This document shows positions 24,300-29,100 of a stretch of DNA of 38,200 nt, piece by piece. The notes below the pieces were generated by a model. The model searched no databases. It was not told where the DNA came from and was given only the letters and a program-made list of their open reading frames with translations. Numbering within the stretch: position 1 is the first letter of the stretch; every line of letters starts with the position of its first letter. The stretch is from an uncultured Gimesia sp. Lineage in GTDB: Bacteria; Planctomycetota; Planctomycetia; Planctomycetales; Planctomycetaceae. The DNA lies in NCBI RefSeq assembly GCF_937910335.1, contig NZ_CALEMX010000472.1:1-38200 (forward strand), read 5' to 3'. Made by a program: the position numbers and the translations under genes.

Positions 24300-26273
24300 T
24301 TATGAATTCGAAACCCCGCAATGTTGTACTTTCGCCGGATTCAAAGCGGGTTTCATATCTATCAGGTATTGTTTGATGAGCTCAGCAGTATGCGAACTCT
24401 CAAGAAGCTTGAGTGTGATCAGGGTTTTTCCCAGTGTAATGGGTGGTTCAATCTGCAATGCCAGCAGATAGGAAACCTGTTGTTGAGTCAGTAAATTCAA
24501 CTGTATAGCAGCGTCCCCAAACCGTTTGCCACTTTCTTTCTGAAGATCCAAAATATTGGTGACTTGTAGATCCGTTAATAATTTTTCGGCAATAGCAAGT
24601 TCGCCTGTTTTCGCCCGCTTTTCTTGCTCAGGGCATTTCAGAAGTGCTTTGGAAATAGTTGGAATATCGAAGATTTTCTTAGTCACGAGCCAGCGACTGA
24701 ATCTATTGCGTTTGACCAGTTGTTGTAGTTCCTGATCATCCTTGCTGATGATGCTACGGATTTGTACTTGATTTCTTCCCTTTTCCTTCGATTCATACAT
24801 CGCCTGATCAGACTCAGCGATCAGGCGTTCTGCATAGCCTGTGATGTCACGAGGTGGAATGCCGACAACAGCTCCCAAACTGGCTGTCACTGGTACGCGT
24901 TTCCCTTCAAACTCAATGAATTCGTTTTCAATGAGAGTCCGCAGTCTTTCTGATAGCTCCCGAATACCATTTTCTGAAGGGTTATTCGCCAGGATCACAA
25001 ATTCTTCACCACCATAGCGGCAGAATACGTCAGATCGACGTGTCGATTCGCTGGCAACTTTGGCGATGCGCTGTAATGCCAGGTCTCCAAACTGATGACC
25101 GTATGTGTCATTTAGTTGTTTAAATCGATCAATGTCTGAAAAAATGATTCCAATTGGCCGTGCAAAGCGAGCACAATGATAAAGCTCTTTTTCAAAGGCT
25201 TCGTTAAAATAACTTCGGTTATAAACCATTGTAAGAGGGTCGTGGATTGCTTTACTCTGCAGTTGTTTATTTTCCGATTCCAGTTTTATTTTTTGTTCTT
25301 CGACGACAGCTTGGCGCGCGGATGCTTGATTCGAATCGACCTGAGCTTTCATGGTCAATTTGAGTAATTGTTCGTTAGCGGTAGCCATAATATCGTATGG
25401 TGATCCGATATCATCCATATTGACCGAAAATATTTGCGCTGCTTCTTCAAATCGTGACTGGACTTGTTCAAGAAAACCGTGCAGCTCTTCATAGGGCATA
25501 TTGAAGAATTCTGATGTCAATTCCTGGAGTCGATTTAAGGCTAATCCACTATTGGTAGAACAGAAATAATCACCGATTGCTGCCGAAGATGCTATGGTAA
25601 TGATCAGATTGAAATGGGGGTGTGACGAGAGTGCTTTTAATTGTTCGAGTGTGTCATGATGGTGTTCAATAGCACTTTTGAATTGTTCTGGCAGCTCCCA
25701 GCGTTCCATCATTTTGACGCCGACTTCACAATGATTGACTCCCAAAACTTCTGTTTCGACTTCAGCACATTCTCTTTCTTGTGTTTCAGCTTGCTCAAGT
25801 ACCGGAACGAGATCGTCGGGGATGGAACGGAGCATTGCAAGATAGCCGATATCCTGTAACAAACCAATCAGAAAGCTGTCGTATTTTAATTCATTCCCCA
25901 GTCTCGAAGCTAATAACTCTGCTGCTGCAGATTGGACGATCGACTGTTTCCAGTAAGAATCGAATCGTACTTTGAGCGGTCCTGCATTGATTGCTGATTC
26001 CGAGAGCGAAAAACTCAACGCCAGAGAGGTAACAACCATGGTTCCCAAAAGAGGAACAGCGCGTTCTATGCCTTTACAATCCGACCTTAGGCCAAAAAAA
26101 GAAGAATTGCTGGCTTTCAGAATTTTGGCTGTGATGGCAGGGTCTGCTTTGATCGTCTCGATCACTTCGCTGATATCGGTATCTGGATTTTTAGAAAGGT
26201 ACAACAACCTGACCGCGACGGCAGGTAAGGTTGGTAATTGATCCGACGACCAAATTTTTTCCGGAGAAATCAT
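24300..26273 (-). CDS. HDOD-GGDEF protein with C-terminal MshEN-like repeats
   Basis: A 657-residue cytoplasmic signalling protein. Residues about 10-205 are an HDOD domain (LPTLPAVAVRLLYLSKNPD, KILKASNSSFFGLR, ERAVPLLG). A coiled coil (about 310-345) leads into a GGDEF domain (about 345-505) with active-site RYGGEEF near residue 419. The product-inhibition I-site RRSD lies five residues before GGEEF, so diguanylate cyclase activity is expected. After it come repeats of the form xxGxAxxxLxLLTxxQVxxLLxLQ (residues about 560-645: KRFGDAAIQLNLLTQQQ, TLGKTLITLKLLESS), resembling the c-di-GMP-binding MshEN/GspE N-terminal module. The protein may thus make and sense c-di-GMP. Start ATG 26273 has AAAGG upstream. 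It follows cheY- and cheX-like genes on the same strand. Confidence 0.88.
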   Translation of the reverse strand: MISPEKIWSSDQLPTLPAVAVRLLYLSKNPDTDISEVIETIKADPAITAKILKASNSSFFGLRSDCKGIERAVPLLGTMVVTSLALSFSLSESAINAGPLKVRFDSYWKQSIVQSAAAELLASRLGNELKYDSFLIGLLQDIGYLAMLRSIPDDLVPVLEQAETQERECAEVETEVLGVNHCEVGVKMMERWELPEQFKSAIEHHHDTLEQLKALSSHPHFNLIITIASSAAIGDYFCSTNSGLALNRLQELTSEFFNMPYEELHGFLEQVQSRFEEAAQIFSVNMDDIGSPYDIMATANEQLLKLTMKAQVDSNQASARQAVVEEQKIKLESENKQLQSKAIHDPLTMVYNRSYFNEAFEKELYHCARFARPIGIIFSDIDRFKQLNDTYGHQFGDLALQRIAKVASESTRRSDVFCRYGGEEFVILANNPSENGIRELSERLRTLIENEFIEFEGKRVPVTASLGAVVGIPPRDITGYAERLIAESDQAMYESKEKGRNQVQIRSIISKDDQELQQLVKRNRFSRWLVTKKIFDIPTISKALLKCPEQEKRAKTGELAIAEKLLTDLQVTNILDLQKESGKRFGDAAIQLNLLTQQQVSYLLALQIEPPITLGKTLITLKLLESSHTAELIKQYLIDMKPALNPAKVQHCGVSNS

Positions 26274-26405: not shown

Positions 26406-26771
26406 TTATGCGTTTGTTGTGACCCAGCGTTCTAACTTGCTTTTCAAACTGTCTGGTGTAAATGGTTTTACAAGATAGTCAGAAACACCTGCCTGAATTG
26501 CTATGACTACGCGTGCACGTTCGGCTTCGGTTGTAATCATAATGATAGGAATTTCTTTGTTAAGCAGACGGATTTCTTTCAGGAGCTGAAGCCCATCCAT
26601 ATTGGGCATGTTCCAGTCGCTCAGAACAATATCGAACGTGCCAGCATTGTATAACTCTAACGCCTGAACTCCATCTTCCGCTTCAGTTACATCTTCGATA
26701 CCTAGTTTCGACAAACATCGTTTCTGGATCGTTCTCATTGTTCCTGAGTCGTCAACAAGTAAAACTTTCAT
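26406..26771 (-). CDS. CheY-like single-domain response regulator
   Basis: A 121-residue stand-alone receiver. The acidic pocket is D7 and D8, and the phospho-acceptor is D52 in LSDWNMPNMDG. The conserved Thr is in IMITTEAE and the Lys in YLVKPF. SDWNMP is the form typical of CheY proteins that act on motors or partner proteins rather than on DNA, and there is no output domain. It is encoded 64 bp after the CheX-like gene and 132 bp before the HDOD-GGDEF gene. CheX-type proteins dephosphorylate CheY-P, so these two probably form a phosphorylation/dephosphorylation pair feeding into c-di-GMP control. Confidence 0.93.
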   Translation of the reverse strand: MKVLLVDDSGTMRTIQKRCLSKLGIEDVTEAEDGVQALELYNAGTFDIVLSDWNMPNMDGLQLLKEIRLLNKEIPIIMITTEAERARVVIAIQAGVSDYLVKPFTPDSLKSKLERWVTTNA

Positions 26772-26835: not shown

Positions 26836-27324
26836 TTATCGATCAGAAAATCCTGCCTCGATCGTGAAGGTTCCAATTTCTGAATCAAACGCGATGCAAA
26901 TAGGTGAAACATTCGAAGGGTAATGTACGGCGTGTCCTACTCCGGTAATGATATTCGGAATACTGATTGAAGCTTCCAGGTGCTCCAGTTGGGCTTTTGC
27001 TGAGCCCGCGATCATATTTGCTAATTCACAAACGGCATCGCAGACCTCATCATTGAGTTCGTCCGTTGTAATACCCAAGAGACGATCCAAAATTCCAATG
27101 CCTACGCTTTTTGATAAACTTAGGACTAGAGTTCCGGCTGCTTTTCCCGAAATTCCAATCACAGCGCTCAATTCATGTTGTGGAATATGATCTGATTTCA
27201 AGCTCAGTCCTGTACGTTTTGGAGTACATCCCAGCATCATATCAAAAACTGAGATTGTTGAGCTGATGATAGGATTCACAAATTCGGCAGTGAGCTCCGA
27301 TTTACCTGCAATGGTTGACGTCAT
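26836..27324 (-). CDS. cheX: CheX-like CheY-P phosphatase
   Basis: A 162-residue protein with ATG at 27324 preceded by AACAGGAA; a TTG two codons earlier is also in frame but less likely. The phosphatase helix reads DEVCDAVCELANMIAGSAKAQL, with E100 and N103 in the E-x-x-N arrangement that CheX, CheC and FliY use to position water for CheY-P dephosphorylation. The alpha/beta layout and length match CheX (about 155 residues) with a single E-x-x-N helix, unlike CheC, which has two. It heads a leftward group with cheY and the HDOD-GGDEF gene. No methyl-accepting protein, CheA or CheW is in the window, so this may be a chemotaxis-derived circuit controlling something else, such as c-di-GMP or pili. 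Confidence 0.86.
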   Translation of the reverse strand: MTSTIAGKSELTAEFVNPIISSTISVFDMMLGCTPKRTGLSLKSDHIPQHELSAVIGISGKAAGTLVLSLSKSVGIGILDRLLGITTDELNDEVCDAVCELANMIAGSAKAQLEHLEASISIPNIITGVGHAVHYPSNVSPICIAFDSEIGTFTIEAGFSDR

Positions 27325-28110
27325 TATCAATTTCCTGTTTTATTACGAATAGTACAAATACGTTTTTTCAATTCTTTTAGATGAACCTCAAAAGTGTAGC
27401 CAAGAGATGGAACTCTAAGATTGATCACAGAATTCAACATTGGTTAGTTGAGTGATAAGCCGTGCGTTCCAATAATTGTGTATGTAAAACATAGATCACG
27501 AAAAAATACATGTGCCAAAATATCAACACGATATTCGCAATAAAAATTACAGGGCCGGAGAAACATTGCCGCATATGTCGAATTTGCTGAATATAATGGA
27601 GGTATTACCCCTACGGGATGTTGGCATCTCATCTGAAATCTGATCAGGAAGCGAAGAATTGCAGACAATAATGTCGAGAAATGTCTTTAGCTTCAGGATT
27701 TGGTTGGTAGAAATGTGCCTGCTTCGACAAATATGAGGTAGTGGAACCAAGAAGCAAAAAAGATAAACAGCTCTGAATAACAATCAGCGTTTGTTTAATT
27801 CGATCCGTTTCGCAGCGTTCACGATAGTATAGAAATATAAATATTTATACTTCAAAATTGCTTTGGATTGCAGTTGAGCCATGAAATGAAAATGGTATAC
27901 GATAGGTAGATGGATGTTGATAGTACAGCTTCATACTTATCAATTGCGATGTAGATGTTTTGATTCGAAACGTATTTTCAATTACATTTCCAGATAACTT
28001 ATCATGGTTTCTCTCCTCAGTAACGAAGAAACCCTTTCAGTTCTTAGTACTTGCGTGCTGATATATTCGAATAGTTGTCTAGTTTTAAAAATTCAAGAGT
28101 TTGAAAGCCA
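27325..28110. other. 786-bp AT-rich divergent intergenic region
   Basis: It separates the leftward CheX-CheY-GGDEF group from the rightward DHp/response-regulator pair and must carry promoters for both. Open frames within it are short, lack ribosome sites and match nothing. A 7-bp hairpin lies at 28006-28033 (GGTTTCT against AGAAACC, 14-base loop), about 80 bp before the DHp gene, without a T tract. I see no known riboswitch, including no recognisable c-di-GMP aptamer. Confidence 0.5.
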
Positions 28111-28356
28111 ATGATTGAGTCATTTCACCCAGACCCGATTGAATTTGCTCAAAATGTAATAACAACATGTCATCGATTGAATAATTTTTTAACGGTTTTA
28201 CAATGCCAGAGTGAATTTCTAGCGGCATTACCCTCCAATGAGACACAGCCAGAGATAGCCGGAATATTAACAGATCTAGATCCATTGATTGAATCCGCAA
28301 CAAATGATGTGCATGAGCTCTCTAAGAAATGCAGAGATTTTTTAGAGGGAAAATAA
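28111..28356 (+). CDS. Stand-alone histidine-phosphotransfer (DHp/HisKA-like) mini-protein
   Basis: An 81-residue, predicted all-helical protein. The segment CHRLNNFLTVLQCQSEFL (residues 20-37) resembles the H-box of histidine kinases, whose usual form is HELNNxLTxIxGxxEL, with H21 as the candidate phospho-site. The second H-box residue, normally Glu or Asp and needed for autophosphorylation, is Arg here. The rest (EIAGILTDLDPLIESATNDV) fits the second DHp helix. No ATPase domain follows in any frame before the next gene. The start has only a weak GAAAG site. It lies 78 bp before a LuxR-type response regulator, the likely partner. Best guess: a phosphotransfer or phosphatase protein, not a kinase. 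Homology rests on one motif. Confidence 0.62.
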   Translation: MIESFHPDPIEFAQNVITTCHRLNNFLTVLQCQSEFLAALPSNETQPEIAGILTDLDPLIESATNDVHELSKKCRDFLEGK

Positions 28357-28434
28357 GAGATGCTGAATGTAGATGGAACCATAAGTAAATTGATATCTAT
28401 CATTTCTAGTAATTAAAATTATCCGGGAGCCACC

Positions 28435-29100
28435 ATGCTTACTTCAACTGATCTGATACGAGTTGTAATCGTAGACGACCATGCCATGCTTGTTGATTCA
28501 TTAGTTTCGCGATTCCAAAAAGACTCTGGAATCGATGTTGTGGGAACGGCAACAGATGCTGATCAGGGTTTGGCTTTAATTCTGGAAACCGAGCCGGATG
28601 TTGTGATTCTGGATGTCGAATTACCGGGCAGAGGATCATTTGATATCGGACAAGAAATTTCAACGAAATTAAAAAACACAAAGATGATTTTTCTGACGGG
28701 TTATCTCTCTGATATTTTCATTGAATTGGCATTAAGGGTGAATGCAGTCGGTTATCTTTTGAAAGGCGAGCCGATTGAATCTCTGATTCACGCAATCAAA
28801 AAAGCGGCCCGAGGTGAATATTGCTTTTCTCAATCGGTTCAGGAACGACTGATTTTTGATCACAAGCAGAATCGTTATTTAATTCATTCAGAAAGCATGC
28901 TGGCATCACTGACTTCTCGGCAGATTGAAGTACTCCGGCATCTGGCGCGCGGAAAAAGTGTCAAGGAAGTGGCTCGTTCAATGCACCTTTCTGAAAAATC
29001 AATCGACAGTCATAAATACCGTATCATGCATAAACTGGGAATTCATGATCGAGTAGAATTGGCCCGGTATTCCATTCGTGAAGGTTTGACACTTCCCTAA
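28435..29100 (+). CDS. NarL/FixJ-type response regulator
   Basis: A 221-residue protein with an N-terminal receiver domain (about 8-125) and a C-terminal LuxR-type helix-turn-helix (about 155-217). The receiver has D14 and D15, phospho-acceptor D60 in VILDVELPG, Thr in FLTGY and Lys in YLLKGEP. The HTH reads LTSRQIEVLRHLARGKSVKE, then ARSMHLSEKSIDSHKYRIMHKLG, a textbook GerE fold with the recognition helix intact. It should bind DNA when phosphorylated. A ribosome site (GGGAG) precedes ATG 28435. No histidine kinase is nearby except the truncated DHp-like protein 78 bp upstream, so the phosphate source must be encoded elsewhere or come through that protein. Confidence 0.93.
   Translation: MLTSTDLIRVVIVDDHAMLVDSLVSRFQKDSGIDVVGTATDADQGLALILETEPDVVILDVELPGRGSFDIGQEISTKLKNTKMIFLTGYLSDIFIELALRVNAVGYLLKGEPIESLIHAIKKAARGEYCFSQSVQERLIFDHKQNRYLIHSESMLASLTSRQIEVLRHLARGKSVKEVARSMHLSEKSIDSHKYRIMHKLGIHDRVELARYSIREGLTLP

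Follow-up and report, generated by a model that had tools for sequence, protein, structure and literature searches.

The window analysed here, a stretch of 38,200 nucleotides from an uncultured Gimesia sp. (contig NZ_CALEMX010000472.1), carries on its forward strand a gene for a small DHp protein of 81 aa (positions 28111–28356). The protein contains the H-box-like motif CHRLNNFLTVLQ, in which the histidine is residue 21. It is followed on the same strand by the gene of its presumed partner, a REC-LuxR response regulator of the NarL/FixJ type (28435–29100, 221 aa, Response_reg and GerE domains), which begins 78 bp past the stop codon of the DHp gene. Open reading frames and Pfam revealed no ATPase (CA, HATPase) domain in the 81-aa frame or between it and the regulator. 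The preliminary description of the locus was accurate in its coordinates, in the 81-aa size, the H-box-like motif and the 78-bp gap, in finding no ATPase domain before the next gene, and in calling the downstream regulator complete.

The neighbouring genes upstream lie on the reverse strand and encode a CheX-type phosphatase (26836–27330), a single-domain, CheY-like receiver (26406–26771) and an HDOD-GGDEF protein (24300–26273). The CheX gene is located divergently upstream of the DHp gene in all 17 genomes of the genus and is recognisable by likeness in a genome of another genus (G305), where an HDOD protein, truncated at the edge of the contig, is present too; genes similar to that of the CheY-like receiver are found in G305 and in a further genome, G034. 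CheX is a possible member of the circuit, and the CheY-like protein a possible donor or sink of phosphate. Two conserved noncoding blocks accompany the forward genes. The first, TGCTGATATA (28056–28065, forward strand), lies 46–55 bp before the DHp start, resembles an extended −10 element by eye in several species and is probably a promoter, while the second, GAACCATAAGTAAATTGATATCT (28376–28398, forward strand), lies between the DHp and regulator genes and is possibly a second promoter or an operator. Both blocks are conserved across the genus and have TGATAT in common.

The 81-aa frame is a real gene that occurs beyond chance. A single-sequence search recovered an orthologue in 17/17 genomes of the genus and, at an E-value of 0.01, in none of 42 other relatives outside it, and when a profile was run against 297 genomes of the class, 15 genus members matched, with none of the genus among the unmatched genomes listed. 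The protein is found in four named records, two of them labelled Gimesia and the closest (90% identity) labelled Planctomycetota. Every one of the 17 orthologues starts with ATG, and the 16 complete ones are 81–91 aa long. The coding status of the frame, on which the preliminary description rested, is supported by dN/dS values of 0.04–0.48 in the eight ortholog pairs compared, which indicate that the frame is under purifying selection. The regulator lies 48–96 bp downstream on the same strand at all 16 genus loci that have it on the contig; the 17th locus is split across contigs, and at the start of its regulator contig the end of the DHp is weakly recognisable (E 0.0103). Minus-strand open reading frames over the DHp gene were considered and rejected, being unconserved and interrupted by stops in all minus frames across the 17 sequences.

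A predicted DHp hairpin related to HisKA

Scans of the single 81-aa sequence against Pfam and NCBIfam returned no match even at an E-value of 10, and none to Hpt in Pfam. Alignment of the genus profile by hhalign to the HisKA domains of the same genome (22 matches, 19 of them above the Pfam cut-off) gave P 5.9e-5 and a probability of 65% over 58 columns, with His21 aligned on the H-box histidine. The reversed-profile control gave P 0.37, and the score of 27.3 compares with a maximum of 17.5 among 200 column permutations, a null built from the first 81 columns of the profile. With the DHp sequences of four genera combined, the match to HisKA reached P 2.1e-6. The HMM comparison suggested in the preliminary description thus bears out a link to HisKA at the level of profiles and comes back empty for the single sequence. 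No likeness to HisKA_3 was detected in a profile alignment with 19 same-genus HisKA_3 domains (P 0.34), and HisKA_2 was absent from all 17 genus genomes at an E-value of 1e-5.

AlphaFold, given five sequences as input, predicted for the single chain a helical hairpin of residues 9–39 and 42–78 with a mean pLDDT of 88.2. The second helix is strongly amphipathic, its moment being reached by a fraction of only 0.0002 of shuffles, and the amphipathicity of the first is ordinary (0.216 of shuffles). Structural comparison with Foldseek and VIA-align retrieved generic helical hairpins, with no DHp domain among the 50 matches listed of each, and of the five matches that the profile found among PDB sequences, none was credible and none was a kinase. 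The profile match and the predicted fold, together with the invariant residues described below, indicate that the protein consists of a DHp hairpin of HisKA origin that stands alone, with neither a CA nor a sensor domain, in agreement with the DHp-only nature first proposed for it.

Three residues are invariant in the 17 orthologues and in the diverged relatives from three other genera (G036, G291 and G305): the candidate phospho-accepting His21 (codon 28171–28173, forward strand), Asn25 at position +4 (28183–28185), which occupies the position of the phosphatase Thr/Asn of HisKA, and Cys32 at position +11 (28204–28206). The conservation of His21, on which the original proposal depended, therefore holds throughout the genus. 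The residue after the histidine varies. It is Arg in 12/17 orthologues, Gln in three, Lys in one and Asp in one, and it is Asn in G036, Glu in G291 and Gln in G305. The preliminary description had reported Arg22 correctly for the window and had laid weight on it, a weight it does not bear: HWE/HisKA_2 kinases normally carry HRxxN (PMC5898713), so an Arg in this place does not by itself mark a kinase as dead. In the aligned sequences, the telling trait is the free +1 position beside a fixed +4 Asn, rather than Arg22 itself.

Other domain assignments were tried and set aside. The HRxxN motif of the HWE/HisKA_2 group is formally present in only 12/17 orthologues. At the level of profiles, membership in this group was set aside on the absence of any Pfam match and of HisKA_2, the model of the group that was run on the genomes, from the genus; an Hpt domain was rejected on the absence of a Pfam match at an E-value of 10 and on the prediction of two helices only; and an autokinase-competent HisKA kinase was rejected because there is no CA domain and the acid at +1 is not kept.

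The protein resembles the DHp domain of HisKA kinases in its H-box His, its Asn at +4, its predicted helical hairpin and its profile match, and differs from these kinases in lacking a sensor and a CA domain and in not keeping the +1 acid. Spo0E-type aspartyl-phosphate phosphatases are small helical proteins that act on the aspartyl phosphate of a regulator; unlike them, the 81-aa protein has no SQELD motif and no Pfam match. Spo0B of Bacillus has a C-terminal domain, whereas the window protein is just 81 aa long. In Spo0B, DHp-type hairpins form a four-helix bundle that acts on a receiver (PMC5231405, PMC3433190). ChpT of Caulobacter is a kinase-like phosphotransferase without autokinase activity (PMC3433190), but it is described as retaining a CA-like fold, which is missing from the 81-aa protein. 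The PhyT/PhyP system of Sphingomonas is similar in combining a DHp protein whose ATPase is degenerate, an HRxxN motif, a single-domain receiver and an output regulator in one circuit (PMC5898713); it differs in being membrane-bound and of the HWE/HisKA_2 type, HisKA_2 having no match in the 17 genus genomes at an E-value of 1e-5. Phosphotransferases with a kinase DHp fold are already known from Spo0B, ChpT and PhyT, the last two of which keep a degenerate ATPase domain according to these sources. A natural protein consisting only of a DHp hairpin and conserved with a LuxR-type regulator was not found in the literature searched, which was mostly openly accessible, and the main text of the survey PMC4558063 does not mention HisKA, HATPase or DHp.

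The regulator and DHp genes in other genera

The regulator of the window has all of the receiver residues D14, D15, D60, T88 and K110. At an E-value of 1e-55 the regulator was found in 58 of 170 genomes of the family, 41 of them outside the genus; 40 of these 41 loci were read, the remaining one (G342) being cut by the contig end. DHp genes were sought upstream on the same strand by two motif scans and the profile, with less than 1 kb of upstream DNA at three of the 40 loci (L116, L121 and L124). A CA-less DHp was present at two loci (G036 and G291), and no same-strand upstream DHp was detected at the other 38.

The G036 protein, of 234 aa, has a DHp end with HNLNN and a weak PAS match that falls under the cut-off (E 0.0028). 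In G291, a 78-aa DHp protein with HEINN precedes the regulator, and its stop codon overlaps an in-frame regulator ATG as TGATGG, a second in-frame ATG following 39 bp on. HisKA is the best Pfam family of the G291 protein, weakly and under the cut-off (E 0.093), and the HisKA model built from the domains of the genome to which the window belongs finds it with an E-value of 0.0014 among 1,830 open reading frames. Both proteins are 19–20% identical to that of the window. A third case, G305, came from a search with a widened profile and lies outside the 40-locus set: a 76-aa protein with HQLTN stands before a regulator that runs off the contig, and genes recognised by likeness as CheX, CheY and HDOD diverge upstream in the order of the window. 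No CheX-CheY genes were seen in the stretch of G291 that was read, and G034 has CheX-CheY genes and no DHp. The survey of related genomes proposed in the preliminary description finds the pair conserved at every readable locus of the genus, and three other genera have a diverged version of it.

All 20 DHp-linked regulators examined keep the phospho-acceptor Asp and an intact receiver site, one of them (G015) being split over two contigs. Outside the genus, 26/38 regulators without a DHp keep the Asp, and the remaining 12 (L105, L108, L109, L110, L112–L117, L121 and L122) are pseudo-receivers in which it is replaced by G, A, E, N or Q; in several of these, the other acid of the pair or the Lys is missing as well. 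Because the 12 losses fall in four genera, retention of the Asp together with the DHp is not independent evidence. Second copies of the regulator are present in two genus genomes (L073 in G014 and L074 in G016); they are 85–87% identical, keep the Asp and have no DHp within 1.5 kb, and a single DHp may serve two regulators in these genomes. In a regulator tree of 49 rows, which took in 6 of the 17 genus orthologues, the deep forks are unresolved and the nine DHp-linked rows require five changes, so that one gain followed by losses is indistinguishable from several gains.

Possible removal or transfer of phosphate

The DHp-only protein is very likely a partner of the adjacent LuxR-type regulator, which it probably switches off or supplies with phosphate. 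The motif pattern leans to removal of phosphate over its passing, and our preferred reading, which we rate as an even call, is that an ATP-free phosphatase is the main activity. We infer that the hairpin would dimerise into a four-helix bundle, that the bundle would bind the receiver of the adjacent regulator, and that His21 and Asn25 would dephosphorylate this receiver without ATP. A remote kinase would then turn the regulator on and the 81-aa protein would turn it off; His21 may also shuttle phosphate in both directions.

Work on HisKA kinases describes the +1 acid as needed only for the kinase reaction and the +4 Thr/Asn only for the phosphatase reaction, with phosphatase retained when the +1 acid is substituted (PMC3510030). 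The isolated DHp of HK853 dephosphorylates its regulator alone, more weakly when the His is mutated and dependent on the +4 Thr (PMC5727384), but that DHp is a laboratory construct whereas the protein described here is encoded by a natural gene. The absence of an ATP domain, the drifting +1 residue and the kept His and +4 Asn favour a DHp that would be kinase-dead and phosphatase-competent. Several points count against this reading. The ATP lid and nucleotide are described as aiding the phosphatase reaction of known kinases (PMC7005713), and the 81-aa protein has neither. The promoter-like block between the two genes may allow expression of the regulator alone. With 38/40 loci lacking an upstream DHp and 26 of these 38 retaining the Asp, the regulator manages elsewhere without a DHp neighbour. 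What the His contributes to phosphatase catalysis is disputed as well (PMC5231405), and for this reason the invariant His fits phosphotransfer too.

The main rival, possible if on the unlikely side, is a phosphorelay intermediate resembling Spo0B, ChpT or PhyT, in which a receiver would phosphorylate His21, which would in turn phosphorylate the regulator. The receiver could be the neighbouring CheY-like protein, or that of a hybrid kinase. Such a relay would account for the His kept in all orthologues, and has precedents in ChpT and Spo0B (PMC3433190, PMC5231405). It is consistent with the CheY-like receiver and CheX phosphatase that adjoin in the window and in G305, CheX being present throughout the genus, with the 19 HisKA matches above the cut-off in the genome itself and with a same-genus kinase that has a receiver-like end (G013). 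PhyT was first named a phosphatase and later found to relay phosphate to PhyR from SdrG, a single-domain regulator, and to have no phosphatase activity in vitro (PMC5898713), a history that calls for caution in naming the 81-aa protein a phosphatase. However, a relay explains the His and gives no clear ground for the invariant +4 Asn, and the CheX-CheY genes do not track the DHp in G291, where none appear in the stretch read, or in G034, which has both without a DHp.

There are kinase-like proteins whose action lies in binding, and the 81-aa protein might be a non-enzymatic adaptor of this sort. By joining or obstructing the DHp bundle of a distant kinase, or by binding the regulator, it would set signalling without handling phosphate. 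A small hairpin with a strongly amphipathic second helix would suit this role, yet the first helix is not unusually amphipathic, and the His and +4 Asn are kept across four genera in the manner of a catalytic site, despite identities as low as those of G036 and G291; we consider an adaptor of this kind improbable. An unrelated helical hairpin, its H-box likeness due to convergence or chance, would fit the lack of Pfam, NCBIfam and PDB sequence matches and the generic fold matches, but is very improbable given a profile–profile match beyond the permuted null and in register on the His, the weak HisKA character of the G291 relative and the presence of a DHp before the same regulator in four genera.

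Were a DHp that removes or passes phosphate confirmed, a natural DHp-only gene would allow kinase-independent DHp roles, phosphatase and transfer alike, to be studied without engineering the CA domain away. The drifting +1 residue and fixed +4 Asn would form a testable evolutionary prediction of the division of labour between kinase and phosphatase in HisKA. Since Pfam and NCBIfam miss the 81-aa protein, regulators that appear to be orphans may have hidden DHp partners. A broader proposal, tentative and rather doubtful as a whole, is that Planctomycetes possess a class of natural DHp-only adaptors (minimal hairpins of 76–91 aa, alongside PAS-DHp and DHp-REC forms) serving LuxR/FixJ-type regulators, in a circuit running from a remote kinase through the CheY-like receiver and the stand-alone DHp to the regulator, with CheX draining the receiver.

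Further DHp-like frames from the profile searches

The profile widened with the DHp sequences of the other genera also matched long, kinase-like frames. Three of these were partly read and, by eye, have an ATPase-like end (L175) or receiver-like ends (L177 and L178). Cys at His+11 is also found in the three kinase-like matches that were read, though its presence there may reflect selection by the profile itself. The matches in G154 (L169) and G236 (L174) were set aside, their frames being opposed to longer open reading frames, and among the 12 weak matches outside the genus in the class-wide search only L039, L040, L042 and L043 were DHp-like by eye.

DHp-REC fusions of 215–251 aa without a CA domain occur in four genomes of one further genus (L171, L172, L173 and L179 in G371, G281, G372 and G215), the domain scan having covered one of them, and each fusion is followed by a FixJ-like REC-LuxR regulator. 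In G256 (L176, 1850–2704), a protein with PAS-like and DHp regions ends right after the DHp and may be a truncated kinase; a transposase-like gene adjoins it.
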